Shown here one piece after another: positions 24,282 through 29,736 of a stretch of 64,000 nt of DNA. How positions within the stretch are numbered: the first letter of the stretch is position 1; every line of letters starts with the position of its first letter. The position numbers and the translations under genes were made by a program. The stretch is from Verrucomicrobiia bacterium DG1235 (GTDB lineage: Bacteria > Verrucomicrobiota > Verrucomicrobiia > Opitutales > Opitutaceae): assembly GCA_000155695.1 (NCBI GenBank), contig DS990592.1:186001-250000 (forward strand), read 5' to 3'. The notes beneath the pieces were generated by a model. That model made no database searches. It was not told where the DNA came from and was given only the letters and a program-made list of their open reading frames with translations.

Positions 24282-24311
24282 TTTCTCAGGTCGAACGAAT
24301 TTCTAAAACGA

Positions 24312-24337
24312 AGCCCGAGGCTGTTAGGCCTCGGGCT
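24312..24337 (+). terminator. hairpin terminator after gcvH
   Basis: A ten-base perfect GC-rich stem, AGCCCGAGGC with GCCTCGGGCT and a six-base loop, is followed by a weak T-rich stretch. It marks the end of the gcvTH unit. Confidence 0.7.
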
Positions 24338-24377
24338 AATTGTTGGTTGGACAAGGGCTACCTTTGTTTTTTTGCTG

Positions 24378-25127
24378 TTATTTATCTTTGAATACAAAAG
24401 CTTGGGATAGCTTAACTTTTACAGGGCGATTGTTTTTGGTGGGCGGTTGGAATCTCCACTGCGAGAGGGCGTCTTGCGTTGCGAGAAGCATGCCTAGATC
24501 CGGTTCGCCATCGGTTTCGCTAAGGGCGGGGATCCTTACCTGACCAGCTTCGTCGATGTAGAATGTGAAGACCGCGCGAGTGCCGTCGTGCTTTTGGATT
24601 ACGTCTTTAGGTATGCTAGGGCTTGGCTGGGCTATGGGGTAGGGTGCTGTATCCAATTCTTTGATATCTGATAGCTTGCTAGCTTCTGACCTAAAACCTG
24701 TTAGCTGATTTAAGCGAACGTTCAGCACGGATGTCGGTAGATCGAAGCTAACGACGCTGCCGCGGGATTCGAAGTGAATATTCAGGTGGTTAACGACTGA
24801 GCGGTTCTCGCCGTTGATGTAAGGTGGCGAAAAACGCCAGCTGTCGATCACTCTTTCTACTGATTCGGTGAATTCAGGGTGAGTAGACTCGATGACGATC
24901 CAATCGCGAAGTTCGCCATCGTGGTCGATATCCATCGCGATCTTTACGTCCCCCTCGAGATATCCGTCTGCAATGAGCGAGTTGGGGAAGTGCGGCATTT
25001 TTATGACTTCGATGTTCAAGTCGACGCCGTATTCGTGAAACTCGAATTTTTGGGGTCCCGCGTGCGCAAGGCTGATTGCAAGCCCGGACAGGATGCAGGC
25101 GCTTAATAGTGTTCTTACCAATTTCAT
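24378..25127 (-). CDS. exported TonB C-terminal-domain protein
   Basis: The 249-residue protein has a signal peptide (LVRTLLSACILSGLAISLAHA) and two regions that resemble TonB C-terminal domains. One is at about 35-125 (GDVKIAMDIDHDGELRDWIVIES, WRFSPPYINGE) and one at about 160-249 (RAVFTFYIDEAGQVRIPAL, LSQWRFQPPTKNNRPVKVKL). Unlike classical TonB it lacks a retained N-terminal anchor and Pro-rich spacer, so it is probably a soluble periplasmic protein rather than an energy transducer. It is a paralogue of the next minus-strand gene and they share gene order and strand. Confidence 0.75.
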   Translation of the reverse strand: MKLVRTLLSACILSGLAISLAHAGPQKFEFHEYGVDLNIEVIKMPHFPNSLIADGYLEGDVKIAMDIDHDGELRDWIVIESTHPEFTESVERVIDSWRFSPPYINGENRSVVNHLNIHFESRGSVVSFDLPTSVLNVRLNQLTGFRSEASKLSDIKELDTAPYPIAQPSPSIPKDVIQKHDGTRAVFTFYIDEAGQVRIPALSETDGEPDLGMLLATQDALSQWRFQPPTKNNRPVKVKLSQAFVFKDK

Positions 25128-25269
25128 TTTTTGTCCTCGTTTGAGATTGTTATGTGAAATGTAACTGGGCCCAATTTGTCTACGTCTGCGGGATTAAGGG
25201 CACTTCACGAAATGTAGTCTAAATCGACCTACAAGAGTGCCGATTTTTTCTGAATGTAAAATTTGGGCA

Positions 25270-25299
25270 TAAAAAAATCCCGTCGAAAGCGACGGGATT
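25270..25299 (-). terminator. terminator between the two TonB-domain genes
   Basis: A ten-base stem AATCCCGTCG/CGACGGGATT with loop AAAG has a run of A on its plus-strand left side, hence a U-run on the minus strand. It terminates the gene at 25339-26118, so the two paralogues are probably separate units. Confidence 0.85.
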
Positions 25300-25338
25300 A
25301 GAAACGGAAAAGATGTATTAGTTTTTAGAATACTCTTT

Positions 25339-26118
25339 TTACTCGAGAGATCCTACATAGCCCTTTTTCTTAAAACGAAAGGGCAGAGCTGTGCGCGCCA
25401 CTACGGGGACTCCATTGCGTCTAGGAGGTTCGAATTTCCACTGGAGCAGGGCCTCTTGGGCGATGATGAGCAGGCGTTCGTCCACTTCGTCGTCCGCTTC
25501 TCTGAGGGTGGGGATGCGAACATTTCCGTCGGTATCGATATAGAACTCGAAAACGGCGTTTACTAGATTTCGATCTTCGAGAAGCTCTACGTGGAAGGCT
25601 GGCTTTTCGATGTGGGTTGGAATGAGGATGCTGTCCAATTCCTTGGGTGTGTAGGTGCGGTACGCGTCTTCGTAGTCTGTGAATGTGCCTAGTTGGGTTT
25701 GTATGTTTTCGTATCCGGAAGTCTCGTACACGACGCCTGATCCGCGCTTGAATTTTACTTTCACGGTACTGACGATGGCGGCGGTTTCTCCTCCTAGTAG
25801 AGGAACGGAGTACTCCCAATCTGGGAGTACACGTTCGACAGCTTCCGCGAAATCGAGATGTGATGCTTCCAGCAGCAAGTAGTCTGCGAGCTCTCCGAAT
25901 TGGTTGACGTAGATAGCGAATATAGCGGTCCCTTCGTCGTAGCCTTTTCGCCTTAGGGTCATAGGAAAGATGGGATCCTTGCTTTCGTGAATGACGAAAA
26001 TGACCTGGGATTCGGAGTGGGCGCGATAGCGTCGTACCTCCTCGTCGGGAGCGGCGAGAGCATTTATGCCAAGTCCGAGGACCAGAGTTGTTATGACGAT
26101 TTTAAGCGTACGTTTCAT
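25339..26118 (-). CDS. exported TonB C-terminal-domain protein (paralogue)
   Basis: From ATG at 26118 (MKRTLKIVITTLVLGLGINALAA, signal peptide) the product is 259 residues; the frame runs 65 codons further upstream without protein-like content. As in its neighbour there are two TonB-like regions: GTAIFAIYVNQFGELADYLLLEAS with WEYSVPLLGGE, and NAVFEFYIDTDGNVRIPTL with LLQWKFEPPRRNGVPV. No membrane anchor or Pro-rich linker. It is divergent from the anti-sigma/sigma pair across a 187-base region with two inverted repeats, so shared regulation is plausible. Confidence 0.75.
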   Translation of the reverse strand: MKRTLKIVITTLVLGLGINALAAPDEEVRRYRAHSESQVIFVIHESKDPIFPMTLRRKGYDEGTAIFAIYVNQFGELADYLLLEASHLDFAEAVERVLPDWEYSVPLLGGETAAIVSTVKVKFKRGSGVVYETSGYENIQTQLGTFTDYEDAYRTYTPKELDSILIPTHIEKPAFHVELLEDRNLVNAVFEFYIDTDGNVRIPTLREADDEVDERLLIIAQEALLQWKFEPPRRNGVPVVARTALPFRFKKKGYVGSLE

Positions 26119-26171
26119 GTTTAAGAAAACTCGCGAGAGGATTGAGCGCGTCGCACGAGTAGAATCATGAA

Positions 26172-26230
26172 ACGGCTTACTCCTGAGCAAGCCGTATCCC
26201 TTCAATTGGCAATTATTTGAAGGGTTGCCA
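26172..26230. promoter_or_regulatory. divergent intergenic region with two inverted repeats
   Basis: Between the TonB-domain gene and the anti-sigma gene lie a hairpin with arms CGGCTT.CTC and GAG.AAGCCG (26173-26194), and a second inverted repeat TGGCAA/TTGCCA (26207-26212 and 26225-26230, spacer 12). One or both may be regulator sites or part of a sigma-factor-controlled promoter. Confidence 0.35.
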
Positions 26231-26305
26231 GTTATTCTTGCGTATGCGAAAGTGTCGAATGCCTGCGTTTCGGGCGTTCTCTCCCATTTTCTACCCAATA
26301 CGACG

Positions 26306-27064
26306 ATGTCCAAGGACCAATCTATCGATAAGCTGCTGAACCACTGGAAAGACGATTTTCAGGCGGACCCGTATCTTTCCTCTCGCGTGAGATCGGAAGC
26401 GGCTCGTAGGCAGACAATAGAAGGTAAGCGGGGCGACAGTGTAGCCATATGGATTGGGAACGCCTTTTCGCGCCCAGGACTTGCTGCCTGTTTTGCGGCG
26501 GTATTCATGCTCGTGGGCATGGGGGTTTCTCAACTCCTCAACCAAGGTGTCGTACGCGATAGCGACGAGCTTACGTTTAGCTATCGGCTTTCTATCGATC
26601 CTCTCTATCGCTTGCAGGCGATGGCGGGCGCGGATGAGTTTACGAATCGCTCAGTGGTCCCGGCGCGACATAAATCTCAGGAAGCTCCTGTTCTGTTGGC
26701 AGGTCTAGGCTGGCTGCAGGGTCAGCTCGATCTTTCGAAGCCGCAGTACGAGCGAGTCACTGCTCTTCATGGAGACTATGAGGTGGCGTTTGACGAGCTG
26801 TTTGCTCAGCTTCTCGAGAGCCATCGGGCTTACCGGGCTTTCGACAAGAAGAGAATGGATAGCGACGTGATCGACTATTTTCAGTTGTACGAGTTGCTGC
26901 AGACGCAGAAGCAACTGAGTGAAGAGTCGGCTCGTCTCACCGAGGAGCTTCTTGGCAAGGTAGAGCAAGTCATAGAACCGTCGCAACGCGATCGGTATCG
27001 CGAGTTGCTCGACAGCATTTACCCCAGTTTCTCTTTTCGAGAAAAAAAGACAACGGATGCGTAA
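26306..27064 (+). CDS. putative anti-sigma factor with Spy/CpxP-like sensor domain
   Basis: From ATG at 26306 (MSKDQSIDKLL) the protein has 252 residues; the frame is open 27 codons upstream. Residues 1-50 are a charged cytoplasmic segment, 56-78 a single membrane helix (RPGLAACFAAVFMLVGMGV). From about 130 on there is a helical periplasmic domain (LDLSKPQYERVTALHGDYEVAFDEL, then QRDRYRELLDSIYPSF) like the heavy-metal-resistance/Spy-CpxP family. No HxxxCxxC zinc anti-sigma motif is present. Its last eight bases overlap the ECF sigma gene. The topology and coupling suggest an anti-sigma regulator resembling CnrY/CnrX roles in one chain; this is inference. Confidence 0.6.
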   Translation: MSKDQSIDKLLNHWKDDFQADPYLSSRVRSEAARRQTIEGKRGDSVAIWIGNAFSRPGLAACFAAVFMLVGMGVSQLLNQGVVRDSDELTFSYRLSIDPLYRLQAMAGADEFTNRSVVPARHKSQEAPVLLAGLGWLQGQLDLSKPQYERVTALHGDYEVAFDELFAQLLESHRAYRAFDKKRMDSDVIDYFQLYELLQTQKQLSEESARLTEELLGKVEQVIEPSQRDRYRELLDSIYPSFSFREKKTTDA

Positions 27065-27728
27065 GATCGGGGCAAACGATCATGAGCTTATGCGTGGCTT
27101 GATTCGCGAGGATCCAGGTTCGCTTGAGAGCATCATCGAAAAGTGGGAACGCCCCCTTTACTCGTTTGCTTATCGCTACACTCAGAACGAGTTCGCGACG
27201 CGGGAGATTGTGCAGGAGACCTTTGTTCGTGTATTCACAAAGCGCGAACGGTACAATTTCGATTATCCCTTGTCGTCCTGGATCTTCACGATCGCCGCGA
27301 ACCTCTGTAAGAATAAGGCTCGGTGGCATAAGCGGCATCCGGAGGTTTCCTTAGAAGCTTCGCTAGGCAACGGCGGCGAAGAGGGGGAGCGAAGCATGAT
27401 GGACGTTATTTCTTCGGAAGGGGAATTGCCGGCGGAATCGATAGAGAAGCTAGAAGAGCTCGACATGCTGAAGCAGGCGGTGATGGGCTTACCCCACGAT
27501 CTGAGGACGGCGGTGTTGCTGCATCACTACGAAGACCTAAGCTATAAGGAGATCGCCGAGGTGGTCGGTTGTTCAGTGAGAGGGGTGGAAACCAGGCTCT
27601 ATAGGGCTCGTAAGCTTCTTCGCGTGCGTATAAGCCAAATAGCTGAGCGCGAAGAGGAGGCTCAAAAAAAAACGGCTCCGTTTAGTTCGGAAGCCGTTCA
27701 TCGAGTGTTTTCAAACGCGGTCTGCTAG
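27057..27728 (+). CDS. ECF-type RNA polymerase sigma factor
   Basis: The 223-residue protein has sigma region 2 (about 25-95: LYSFAYRYTQNEFATREIVQETFVRVF, then SSWIFTIAANLCKNKAR) and region 4 (about 140-195: LPHDLRTAVLLHHYEDLSYKEIAEVVG, then VRGVETRLYRARKLLR). It overlaps the putative anti-sigma gene upstream by eight bases, an order reversed from most sigma/anti-sigma pairs. The last 20 codons (from QKKTAPFS) coincide with a terminator that serves the convergent gene, so the tail is unlikely to be functional protein. Likely targets include its own promoter and perhaps the divergent TonB-domain gene. Confidence 0.9.
   Translation: MRKIGANDHELMRGLIREDPGSLESIIEKWERPLYSFAYRYTQNEFATREIVQETFVRVFTKRERYNFDYPLSSWIFTIAANLCKNKARWHKRHPEVSLEASLGNGGEEGERSMMDVISSEGELPAESIEKLEELDMLKQAVMGLPHDLRTAVLLHHYEDLSYKEIAEVVGCSVRGVETRLYRARKLLRVRISQIAEREEEAQKKTAPFSSEAVHRVFSNAVC
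27663..27697 (-). terminator. terminator of the unknown minus-strand gene, inside the sigma gene
   Basis: Arms AACGGCT and AGCCGTT, extended by CCG/CGG across one mismatch, form a hairpin. A run of A on the plus-strand left side becomes a U-run for minus-strand transcripts. It lies within the final codons of the sigma gene. Confidence 0.8.
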
Positions 27729-28358
27729 CTAGAAAAGCGGGCTGAATCCGAGCCGAACTTTCTTTCGGAGCACGATACATTCGGCTTCGATCTTTGTATT
27801 CGTGGAGAAAATACGCTTACGTAGACAATTCTCTCGGGCTCCTTCTTGGAGGAGCGATTCAATACTGGCCTCCTCGATAATCGAGCGCTCTCTTGCGGAA
27901 AGTTGTCCGTGGAAGGTGAAACGAAATTCGAGGCCGTGCGAATGGGGAGCGGCTTCGATTTTCAGTTCGTCCAGCTCGCGGCAGTAGCTGGCGATGAGGG
28001 TAAGGTCATCAGCAAATTCAACGAGTTTGAGCGAGGCTTGCTCGTCCAGGTTTTCTTTGACGCCGCTGGCTGTGATGCGATTTGTGAATCCGTAGGATAG
28101 GCCGATACTTGGAAGGCGTTCTGCGGCCCATGCTTTAAGAGCGTGCGGGCTCGAGAGGCTGGCGATGCGCGTGGCGTTGGCGTAGCGCTCATGTTCGTCG
28201 AGAAAGAGGTCCAGCGTTTCGTCGACGGTTGCAGGAGCTTCCGTTGCGAGTCGGTCGGAGAGTCCGCGAAGTACTCGGCCAAGCGGTATCGAGTCCAGTT
28301 TTGGAGTCGGACTGGTGAGAGAGGTGAAGCCTCCCGGTTTTGGAAAGTCTAGCATCAT
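27729..28358 (-). CDS. hypothetical protein
   Basis: I do not recognise this 209-residue protein. It has no signal peptide or membrane segment. A Pro/Thr-containing N-terminus (FPKPGGFTSLTSPTPKL) precedes a mostly helical body with many Glu, Arg and Leu, including LDLFLDEHERYANATRIASL and LSARERSIIEEASIESLL in separate blocks. It stops one base after the end of the convergent sigma gene and has its own terminator inside that gene. Codon use is like the neighbours. Either of two adjacent Met codons may be the start. Confidence 0.6.
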   Translation of the reverse strand: MMLDFPKPGGFTSLTSPTPKLDSIPLGRVLRGLSDRLATEAPATVDETLDLFLDEHERYANATRIASLSSPHALKAWAAERLPSIGLSYGFTNRITASGVKENLDEQASLKLVEFADDLTLIASYCRELDELKIEAAPHSHGLEFRFTFHGQLSARERSIIEEASIESLLQEGARENCLRKRIFSTNTKIEAECIVLRKKVRLGFSPLF

Positions 28359-28732
28359 AGAAGTGAACAGGTTGGAAATGTTGTGATTGAGGCTCTGACT
28401 GTCGCGGTGTATCCGATACCGAAGGACAGTTAGGGCGCATCAATCTTATCTTATAGTATCGACCAATTGCTAGAGGGGGAGCTGTGTTTCCCTATTAAAA
28501 AAAGTATAAAGAATCGCTGGTGAGGCGGGAGTTAGGTGTGGAATGCGAATCTCGAAGCGAAAAATCTCTGAGGGCGAATGAAAGCTACTCACGAGTCCTG
28601 CGGATAGCGCTTATGAGCATGGAGCTTACAGCCTAGGAGGCGCGTCGGGTTTATTCACGGAAGCACCCAGGGTTTTGCGGGAAGAATGAAAAATCGCCCG
28701 AAAGCGTAAATCGTTTCGCTATCTCTGGACGC
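28359..28732. other. non-coding stretch of about 370 bases
   Basis: No open frame of note and no RNA gene recognised. It contains the promoter side of the unknown minus-strand gene and lies just beyond the terminator of the receptor remnant. It may contain further decayed DNA from that remnant, but I cannot match it. Confidence 0.35.
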
Positions 28733-28781: not shown

Positions 28782-29465
28782 TCAGCGTAGATTCAGGGCT
28801 CTGGCGATATCGGCTATCGACCAGGCGGAAACGCCGGAGTCGTCGTGGATACCGTAGAATATGCCCAGTGGATACCGCGGGGAAGCTTCGAGGTCGATCG
28901 CTACGCCATCGTCTTCGTAGATAGCTTCCGCGTCCTTGAAGGTGAGGTTGGTATCAACGCTGAATCCAGTGAGCGCTTCGCTGTAGGCGCCGAGGCATTA
29001 CTGCCAAACCAGTTCGATACCCTTGATCTTGGTGGTCTCGCCGTTGATTGGACGTGTCAACTCGTACTCGACGCCGCTGATCGTAACGTCAGTATCCGCA
29101 TCGTAGATGAAGGAGTCGATGTTCTTGTAGAAGAAGTTAGCGGAGAAGAGACCGAGCTTATCGTTGTAGCGTTCGATCGAGAGATCGAAGTTGGTCGATT
29201 CGTATGGGTCCAGGTACGGGTTGCCGCTTGAGATTTCTTCTTCGATGATGTCACGCTGGCTAGACGCGGAAGAGTCGCTGAATTTCGGTCGGGCGATCGT
29301 GTTGGAAACTGGTGCGCGAACGATAGTGTTTTGATTTACGTCGTATCGAGTATTCAAGGACGCCATGATATCGCTGTAGCTGTCGGAAAATGATTGTGGG
29401 TTGAAGGACGCTTCTTCCTCTTCATCGAGTAGGCCGGCGAACAGTTTTCCAGCGTTGGGCTTCAT
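28782..29465 (-). pseudogene. TonB-dependent receptor fragment, interrupted
   Basis: Only a C-terminal barrel piece of a TonB-dependent outer membrane receptor remains. Strand blocks typical of these receptors are SYSDIMASLNTRYDVNQNTIVRAPVS, TIARPKFSD, SSGNPYLDPYESTNFDLSIERY, LGLFSANFFYKNIDSFIYD and TKIKGIELVWQ. There is no signal peptide, plug or TonB box. A TAA at 28998-29000 interrupts it directly after ELVWQ, yet the same frame continues for 71 codons (LGAYSEALTGFSVDTNLTF...) to a TGA at 28782 and a terminator. The last 25 codons (to IADIARALNLR) do not look like a receptor end, so a fusion or deletion is possible. Confidence 0.8.
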
Positions 29466-29736
29466 AGCTAGTACAAGTTTGTTTTTGATTGTCGGCGGTG
29501 CGCCGCAAACGGGATGCACATGAGCGCGGGCAAGCTCTGTCAACACGGATGGAAAGGTGTCACTGTCTTGTTTCGCAGCCGTTATGAGCCTGTGACTTTT
29601 AGCGTATTTGAAAGTCCGATCCCTAGGGGATTTGCCTTTACAAAAGGGGACTTATGGCTGTCTATCTGCAGCTTCCCCACACCTGTTTGTCTTTCTCGTA
29701 GAGAGCAGACGGTCCAAACGCATTATCCTCTAGAAT

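Follow-up and report, generated by a model that had tools for sequence, protein, structure and literature searches.

Positions 26306–27064 of the window (the whole 64,000-nucleotide stretch that was analysed, from the marine Verrucomicrobiia bacterium DG1235) display an open reading frame of 252 amino acids, which comparison shows to be a fusion: a CnrY-like anti-sigma segment and its membrane helix are joined to a sensor of the CnrX/Spy fold. The sensor's own membrane anchor is lost, relative to the separate cnrY-like and cnrX-like genes of most relatives and of a paralogous locus in the same genome. The fusion is the unusual feature of the locus; the gene order is ordinary. With the adjoining ECF sigma gene and two genes for exported TonB-domain proteins, TonB1 and TonB2, it probably represents a self-contained CnrYXH-type circuit for cell-surface signalling in Pelagicoccus (Opitutales) that regulates itself, with TonB1 and TonB2 as its predicted main output. 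The sequences give good support to a self-regulated sigma circuit whose conserved targets are tandem-TonB proteins, and comparison shows that elements of exact spacing precede both the operon and the tandem TonB_C genes.

The fused gene is on the forward strand with an ATG at 26306; the open reading frame list starts it at a TTG at 26225. It encodes a cytoplasmic segment (residues 1–56), a transmembrane segment (about 59–77) and a periplasmic helical sensor (about 126–241, nt 26681–27028). The ECF sigma gene (27057–27728, forward strand, 223 aa) follows it with an 8-base overlap at 27057–27064, as the original prediction had stated. TonB1 (25339–26118, reverse strand) is divergent from the fused gene. 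Its ATG at 26118 agrees with the signal peptide and with orthologues; the listed start is a TTG at 26313. A terminator-like hairpin with a T tract is found 3′ of TonB1 (25276–25299, reverse strand), thus TonB2 (24378–25127, reverse strand) is probably a separate unit. The TonB2 gene is outside the interval 25339–27728 that was described originally.

One transmembrane segment, at residues 59–77, was found in the window protein, and one apiece in five fused proteins tested. The same number was seen in each of two split Y proteins, two split X proteins, CnrY and CnrX. In CnrYXH-type systems CnrY and CnrX are distinct chains that each carry a membrane helix, an arrangement absent from the window protein. 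The fused protein matches two adjacent open reading frames in other genomes and at the second locus of its own genome. Full-length orthologues in one open reading frame are present in five of seven genomes of the same genus and in three other genera. A structure model of the anti-sigma part has two helices (residues 3–14 and 24–54) ahead of the transmembrane segment. In CnrY-like class II anti-sigma factors two helices wrap the sigma factor (PMC7406223). The program hhalign detected no sequence homology when the sensor and the anti-sigma segment were compared with CnrX and CnrY as single sequences; the window sigma factor is alignable with CnrH (probability 98.9). Two points were overlooked originally: the protein combines what elsewhere are two distinct genes, and the same genome holds a split paralogue of the whole circuit.

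The sigma protein displays Sigma70 regions 2 and 4 only, the feature of ECF (group IV) factors. The Pfam matches Sigma70_r2 (3.3e-13) and r4_2 (3.2e-17) are both above cut-off, and NCBIfam sigma70-ECF (TIGR02937) gives 96.9 bits against a cut-off of 42.9; none of the other 24 NCBIfam matches listed (of 115) attains its own cut-off. The proposed sigma/anti-sigma pairing is supported. The order itself had been described as reversed and special, but anti-sigma, sensor, sigma is the order in 71 of 80 related loci and in cnrY-cnrX-cnrH of Cupriavidus metallidurans (NC_007972). The split Y-X-sigma form is present in the own-genome paralogue and in 63 of the 80 named loci (the weak locus L163 has sigma first), and in every one of the 20 loci read the sigma gene is 3′ of the anti-sigma and sensor parts. 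A tree of the sigma factors groups the fused loci as a single clade (95/87), and all 48 TonB-linked rows fall within one clade of 54 (99/97).

The locus shares with CnrYXH of pMOL28, i.e. CnrY anti-sigma, CnrX sensor and CnrH sigma, this gene order, a short membrane-bound anti-sigma, alignable sigma factors and, in the predicted model, a CnrX-like helical sensor fold. It differs in having anti-sigma and sensor in one chain with one transmembrane segment, and in its neighbours, which are tandem TonB_C proteins instead of the CnrCBA efflux pump. Surface signalling of the RseA/RseB-RpoE and FecIR types also combines a membrane anti-sigma with an autoregulated ECF sigma and an envelope or outer-membrane theme. 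The likeness extends to these features; however, Pfam detects no RseA or FecR domain in the anti-sigma protein, and a TonB-dependent receptor is not a conserved partner in the lists read.

In the pair of predicted exported proteins opposite the operon, the TonB domains are borne out by Pfam, as TonB_C (PF03544) matches two stretches in each protein (1.3e-10 / 4.6e-18; 42.0 and 65.9 bits, cut-off 24.6). A structure search with TonB1 gave TonB C-terminal domains as best matches, including complexes with FoxA, BtuB and TbpA, at probability 1.00 but with no match at E ≤ 0.001. Both proteins have an N-terminal hydrophobic stretch (positions 5–23 in TonB1, 3–21 in TonB2) followed by a signal-peptidase-like site (ALA-A and AHA-G, respectively), and probably have no membrane anchor. 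TonB energy transducers have an uncleaved N-terminal anchor, an ExbB/D contact and a Pro-rich spacer. The two proteins resemble them in the TonB_C domain and in their structural matches. They differ in having two domains in tandem, a signal-peptide-like N terminus, no proline-rich spacer (none was seen in TonB1 or TonB2), and several paralogues per genome in many genomes of the family.

RseB and CpxP are periplasmic feedback regulators for RseA and CpxA. By analogy, the tandem TonB_C proteins may be sigma-induced feedback regulators which bind the sensor and switch the system off. This is possible but rather unlikely. It would fit with their predicted export, with the proximity of their genes to the sigma gene in all 20 loci read, and with a predicted promoter of the same sigma factor upstream of them. 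However, genomes in which nothing matched the sensor at the limit applied (G333, G268 and G128) also have tandem TonB_C proteins, extra copies away from the circuit carry the predicted promoter in several genomes, and six split loci with a strong sensor have no TonB gene nearby.

The periplasmic domain had been likened to Spy, CpxP and CnrX, and its predicted model does have a fold of the CnrX/Spy type. CnrX chains are the top Foldseek candidates (Z up to 10.3, rmsd 2.3, 106 residues); Spy gives Z 8.2 and ZraP Z 7.5. The pLDDT is about 90–97 across residues 131–240. For helical bundles, common arrangements can reach a Z close to 10. Besides the fold, the sensors share with Spy/CpxP/ZraP-type proteins matches at E ≤ 1 to LTXXQ in 14 of 21 and to Metal_resist (PF13801) in 17 of 21; the relatives L047 and L043 exceed the LTXXQ and Metal_resist cut-offs, respectively. 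The sensor in the window differs from that group by its membrane tether and by sharing a chain with an anti-sigma segment. Its protein is below the curated Metal_resist cut-off (E 0.006, 17.2–18.6 bits, cut-off 29.2 bits), and so is the own-genome split sensor. Among the 14 scanned sensors with scores listed only L043 passes (30.6), the next being 28.2.

A CnrYXH-like response to heavy metals, with a sensor that binds a transition metal and TonB proteins that aid metal uptake or efflux, is improbable. CnrX is the closest solved fold, and the Metal_resist matches, with L043 above cut-off, point the same way. One histidine (H155) is invariant in 41 of 41 sensors, and most split sensors have further His, Cys and Met columns in common. 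However, H155 is the only invariant His column, and fused and split sensors taken jointly have no further conserved His or Met column. The metal site of CnrX (H42, H46, E63, H119 and M123) consists of two H-x3-H/M pairs plus a Glu, and the window sensor appears to be without these paired ligands. A metal signal by the CnrX mechanism is therefore disfavoured, and no efflux or metal genes were seen by eye among the open reading frames listed. Residue-by-residue transfer of the CnrX site was dropped, as the MAFFT modes split the anchor motifs, and column conservation was used instead.

Regulatory DNA had been expected, and finds support, in the region 26119–26305, between TonB1 and the fused gene, where two inverted repeats were described. 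Both are present, at 26169–26198 (14-nt arms) and 26204–26233 (9-nt arms). The conserved element is a third, CCCTTCA-N13-TGAAGGG (26198–26224), read in the sequence as CCCTTCA at 26198–26204 and TGAAGGG at 26218–26224. It appears to consist of two back-to-back −35 elements, with TGAAGGG-N16-MGTA pointing both ways. In six orthologues aligned by eye this pair is conserved and the outer hairpin is not. The hairpin 26169–26198 was rejected as an RNA element, as its arms are not retained in orthologues (by eye) and there is no Rfam match. The predicted promoter of the anti-sigma/sigma operon is TGAAGGG-N16-CGTA (26218–26244, forward strand, its 5′ end 88 nt before the ATG). That of TonB1 is TGAAGGG-N16-AGTA (26178–26204, reverse strand, 86 nt before the ATG). 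TonB2 has TGAAGTG-N16-CGTA (25181–25207, reverse strand, 80 nt before the ATG). The like predicted promoters before all three units support the shared regulon that was proposed. Three such sites occur in the 64 kb against 0.08 expected, and none of 100 shuffles attains three; the pattern was derived from the loci where it was scored, so the independent cases are the other genera and the split loci only.

The pattern with the same spacing is found in the split sister loci upstream of 24 of 32 TonB genes and 21 of 34 anti-sigma genes, where letter shuffles give 0.18 and 0.12 and the opposite strand 2 and 1, respectively. The remaining 8 TonB and 13 anti-sigma upstream regions give no match. The same is true of 4 of 11 TonB and 3 of 8 anti-sigma upstream regions in the fused set, where locus L134 displays the pattern at neither gene. 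The second promoter block is shown by comparison to differ between the two sigma clades, i.e. GTA in the fused and GGTGTT in the split clade (43 of 45 split-locus matches).

The elements could instead be operators of another regulator, or be conserved for some other reason, rather than promoters of this sigma factor. This is improbable. As is common for operators, the back-to-back pair forms a palindrome, and the promoter assignment is a prediction from sequence. But a single non-palindromic copy with −35/−10-like spacing is present before TonB2 and before the split-locus genes, and the second block varies with the sigma clade. In addition, the pattern is present in 0 of 24 upstream regions of sigma loci outside the clade, and sigma-70-type sites in 24300–28400 number 0 against 2.7 expected.

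A sensor profile run on 387 genomes of the phylum gave 30 loci. Fifteen of the 16 strongest have both TonB and sigma genes, and the sixteenth is cut by a contig end; in the 14 weaker loci no TonB gene (0/14) is within the 1.5-kb flanks. In the 80 named loci a divergent TonB gene is present in 8 of 8 fused loci, and 33 split loci are with and 30 without TonB. The TonB gene is upstream divergent, upstream on the same strand, downstream convergent or downstream on the same strand. Chance adjacency of an ordinary ECF sigma/anti-sigma pair and unrelated TonB-like genes, which adjacency in one genome alone would not rule out, is very improbable, since the adjacency is retained in these four arrangements, across many genera and mostly with the same promoter element.

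Nutrient sensing, also suggested originally, finds no support, as a receptor or transporter is not a conserved part of the locus. A phytase/TonB-dependent-receptor pair is next door in relatives (Pfam-tested in L032; similar pairs by eye in L033–L035). As a target the pair was rejected: it is not seen in L036–L039 and is decayed in the window.

A regulon extending beyond the circuit is suggestive only. The fused-type pattern gives 15 sites in the own genome and a reversed control gives 12, which does not justify claiming any further target. Of the 12 sites beyond the locus about eight are inside long open reading frames, and L060, L063 and L064 are 39–46 nt before one; in a comparison by eye with the G003 and G004 sites (loci for 30 of 40), none was matched by a site ahead of a similar gene. 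The split-type pattern gives 103 sites in 100 family genomes against 19 for the control. Forty regions, chosen as outside circuits, were examined. The site is at a tandem TonB_C gene in seven, with no sensor or sigma in those regions, and before an exported PQQ/BamB-type propeller gene in five. It precedes a TPR/PDZ protein in two, an apparent rho in two (label by eye) and apparent TonB-dependent receptors in three (by eye); one of these receptor sites, L286, is divergent from the anti-sigma gene of a circuit itself. Many of the remaining sites, inside open reading frames, are probably due to chance. Eight propeller homologues in the 100 genomes show an exact site in four (including G189), a one-mismatch site in two (by eye) and none in two; no homologue above the limit was found in four same-genus genomes searched, own included. 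In ten tandem-TonB loci away from the circuit the GGTGTT form is present only in L223, possibly the circuit gene of that genome set apart by a contig break, and a looser match in L217.

In the mechanism proposed, the cytoplasmic helices 3–14 and 24–54 would clamp the sigma factor at the membrane. The helical sensor would respond to a periplasmic event, i.e. an envelope protein that is unfolded or in the wrong place, or some other ligand, and not to Ni/Co via the CnrX site; envelope stress as the trigger is what we infer. The sigma factor would then be released, and the fusion would relay the signal inside one polypeptide in place of a CnrX–CnrY contact. Freed sigma would transcribe its own operon, giving feedback and amplification, and as main output the TonB1 and TonB2 genes. 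Once exported, the two proteins would work in the periplasm, where their likeliest activity is to bind the TonB boxes or plugs of TonB-dependent receptors when the envelope is in trouble; this role is a guess. A still more tentative proposal, which is unlikely as it stands, is an Opitutales envelope response in which sigma freed by the fused switch floods the periplasm with soluble tandem TonB decoys that would compete with TonB for outer-membrane receptors and halt import. No regulated periplasmic TonB decoy serving as uptake control was met in the literature searches. If true, the decoy would shut down TonB-dependent import under stress, a lineage-specific control of uptake.

The locus points to a single fusion event by which a membrane switch of two proteins came to be made of one, and the split paralogue in the same genome offers a natural control. 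Exported tandem TonB domains, a large family so far without explanation, are tied to a stress-type circuit, so that their function is open to experiment. In a phylum that has been little studied, one sigma factor can now be assigned an anti-sigma, a sensor, a predicted promoter sequence of exact spacing and a small list of conserved targets.

The window contains an anti-sigma-like gene (window positions 26306-27064, plus strand), an ECF sigma gene (27057-27728, plus strand) and two tandem TonB_C genes on the minus strand, TonB1 (25339-26118) and TonB2 (24378-25127). The 8-base overlap between the anti-sigma and sigma genes, part of the original prediction, is confirmed by these coordinates. 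The "reversed" gene order of the original prediction is not special: anti-sigma, sensor, sigma is the order in 71 of 80 named loci found with a sigma profile, L163 being an exception with sigma first, and it is also that of cnrY-cnrX-cnrH on Cupriavidus metallidurans pMOL28. The window order is therefore ordinary for such systems. A terminator-like hairpin with a T tract is embedded in the 3′-terminal coding sequence of the sigma gene (27676-27692, minus strand) and possibly serves the convergent gene at 27729-28358.

The anti-sigma protein is a fusion of two genes that are separate elsewhere. Among 57 genomes (own included), full-length relatives in one open reading frame are found in five of seven same-genus genomes (51%-71% identity) and, outside the genus, in G019, G015 and G039. 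In other genomes, and at a second locus in the own genome (G000:C6:3669954-3670697), the N-terminal and C-terminal halves match two neighbouring genes. The first of the split genes (~109 aa) encodes a cytoplasmic segment, a TM helix and then the motif SYxxxIDP; the second (~145 aa) encodes its own N-terminal TM, followed by a helical domain. Of these parts, the fused form retains the first TM and the motif, as SYRLSIDP, but not the second TM.

The 80 named loci comprise 8 fused, 63 split and 9 without a scored pair. In a sigma tree of 85 rows (L202 omitted as too short, six rows added beyond the 80), a starred branch (95/87) separates the 12 fused rows from all others, thus a single fusion event is enough; the sigma of split loci is a sister clade. 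The word Verrucomicrobia is absent from the accessible text of two CnrY/CnrH papers (PMC7406223, PMC8103513). Among the papers listed on Verrucomicrobia/Opitutus ECFs, Pelagicoccus sigma/TonB, tandem TonB or fused CnrY, none has a title or abstract opening that describes the present system, subscription papers being largely outside this scope; for that reason this sigma clade may already have been given an ECF group number.

The gene grouping, for which the original prediction suggested a search, recurs elsewhere. A tandem TonB gene lies within about 2.5 kb of the sigma gene in all 20 loci (8 fused, 12 split) chosen from matches to the anti-sigma protein, not to the TonB protein. A sensor profile matches in 44 of 387 phylum genomes; of 30 sensor loci listed, the 16 strongest include 15 with TonB and sigma genes and one that stops at a contig edge, and none of the 14 weaker has TonB inside 1.5-kb flanks. 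Among the named loci, several of which are from the same genomes as the sensor-profile loci, TonB is within 2.6 kb in 8/8 fused and 33/63 split loci. In all 33 the sensor scores strongly (1e-36 or better). The remaining 30 split loci have 23 weak and 7 strong sensors, including L167, a 34th split locus with TonB slightly past 2.6 kb. The TonB gene position varies, with four different arrangements around the circuit.

Alignment of the divergent intergenic regions (139-193 nt) of six Pelagicoccus loci displays two conserved block pairs. TGAAGGG-N16-(C/G)GTA is directed towards the anti-sigma gene in 6/6 and TGAAGGG-N16-(A/C)GTA towards TonB1 in 5/6 (L035 differs at the first base); TGAAGT(A/G)-N16-NGTA is found 5′ of TonB2 in all five loci with a TonB2 gene. 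The conserved inverted repeat of this region consists of the two predicted -35 blocks back to back. TGAAGKR-N16-MGTA occurs three times in the 64-kb window, always at circuit genes (0.08 expected; three reached in 0/100 shuffles), a count that is not independent since the pattern was derived from the same loci. An independent set is eight apparently fused loci outside Pelagicoccus: TGAA(G/C)NN-N16-NGTA is found on the anti-sigma side in five (L131, L133, L170, L222, L211), while four (L129, L130, L131, L222) have it on the TonB side and L134 shows it on neither side. The 24300-28400 region yielded no sigma-70-type site, versus 2.7 expected. A terminator-like hairpin with a T tract after TonB1 (25276-25299, minus strand) fits separate units for TonB1 and TonB2.

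Split loci display a related pattern, TGAAG-N18-NGT(A/T), 5′ of 24/32 TonB genes (letter-shuffle expectation 0.18; opposite strand 2) and 21/34 anti-sigma genes (expectation 0.12; opposite strand 1). It is present in 4/6 strong-sensor loci without TonB and in 0/24 other loci. The second block is GGTGTT in 43 of 45 split-locus matches. TGAAGKR-N14-GGTGTT has exactly two sites in the own genome, one 5′ of the TonB gene and one 5′ of the anti-sigma gene of the split paralogue; thus two circuit copies with different predicted -10 blocks share one genome. This second complete circuit (L046 8473-10715; G000:C6 3668473-3670715) consists of TonB, sigma, sensor and anti-sigma genes.

Across 100 family genomes there are 103 sites of the GGTGTT pattern versus 19 for the control. 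Among 40 regions examined outside circuits, the site lies at an additional tandem TonB gene in seven and, in five from five genomes in three genera, precedes the gene of a homologous exported PQQ/BamB-type propeller protein (L274, L283, L269, L297, L305; L274 was Pfam-tested). In the own genome no pattern sites exceed background apart from the two circuits. At L286 30-2900 (G374:C5) a split-type site is directed away from the circuit's anti-sigma gene, towards an apparent TonB-dependent receptor.

The sensor was predicted to resemble Spy/CpxP/CnrX. An AlphaFold2 model of the anti-sigma/sensor protein, built from 41 sequences, has a mean pLDDT of 83.3, and about 90-97 over residues 131-240. Among Foldseek matches realigned with VIA, CnrX chains rank top (Z 10.3, rmsd 2.3, 106/106 residues) and Spy next (Z about 8), although a common arrangement alone can bring helical bundles to Z of such size; the 11 best rows are nevertheless all CnrX, NccX or the STV protein. 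Pfam Metal_resist matches 17 and LTXXQ 14 of 21 sensor members (E ≤ 1). Among 14 sensors with scores, one passes each cut-off (L043 Metal_resist, L047 LTXXQ), and the window sensor is below both. Comparison with a single CnrX sequence by hhalign found no relation. One His, H155, is invariant (41/41), whereas nothing equivalent to the paired metal ligands of CnrX is shared by all sensors. Split sensors have extra columns of His, Cys and Met with no match in the window protein, therefore fused and split sensors might respond to different ligands. Two residues missing in the window protein could have a redox or metal role: a Cys in sensor helix three (29/41 rows) and a His where the split sensors' own TM ends (32/41).

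TonB1 and TonB2 each have two TonB_C stretches. The best structural matches to the TonB1 model (pLDDT 85.1; best E 2.1e-3) are C-terminal domains of TonB, several of them complexed with receptors. Export without a membrane anchor, as first proposed, is suggested by N termini that resemble signal peptides, with putative cleavage sites ALA-A or AHA-G, and by the absence of a proline-rich spacer; both proteins may therefore be soluble and periplasmic. The TonB protein family is larger than the circuit, with matches in 102/387 phylum genomes at 1e-12, many covering one domain only. L229 and L231, two family loci, show several TonB_C matches in succession. Near the window circuit, 28998-29546 (minus strand) encodes a TonB-dependent receptor barrel fragment (Pfam E 1.5e-18) without plug. 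The equivalent place in P. mobilis holds an intact 928-aa receptor and a beta-propeller phytase gene, with like pairs seen by eye in three further relatives; the fragment is probably a remnant of a decayed phytase/receptor operon.

Circuit architecture, TonB linkage and promoter conservation are established at the sequence level. From these we infer sigma sequestration, the inducing signal, the direction of control and any TonB protein function. The membrane-bound anti-sigma would withhold the sigma factor from RNA polymerase, and the helical sensor, covalently joined to it, would signal a periplasmic change. An envelope signal is favoured, mainly because the predicted targets are envelope proteins. 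The released sigma would turn on its own operon and the TonB genes. Output by receptor binding of the TonB proteins is considered somewhat more likely than feedback control of the sensor, since their family is also found where the circuit is absent.
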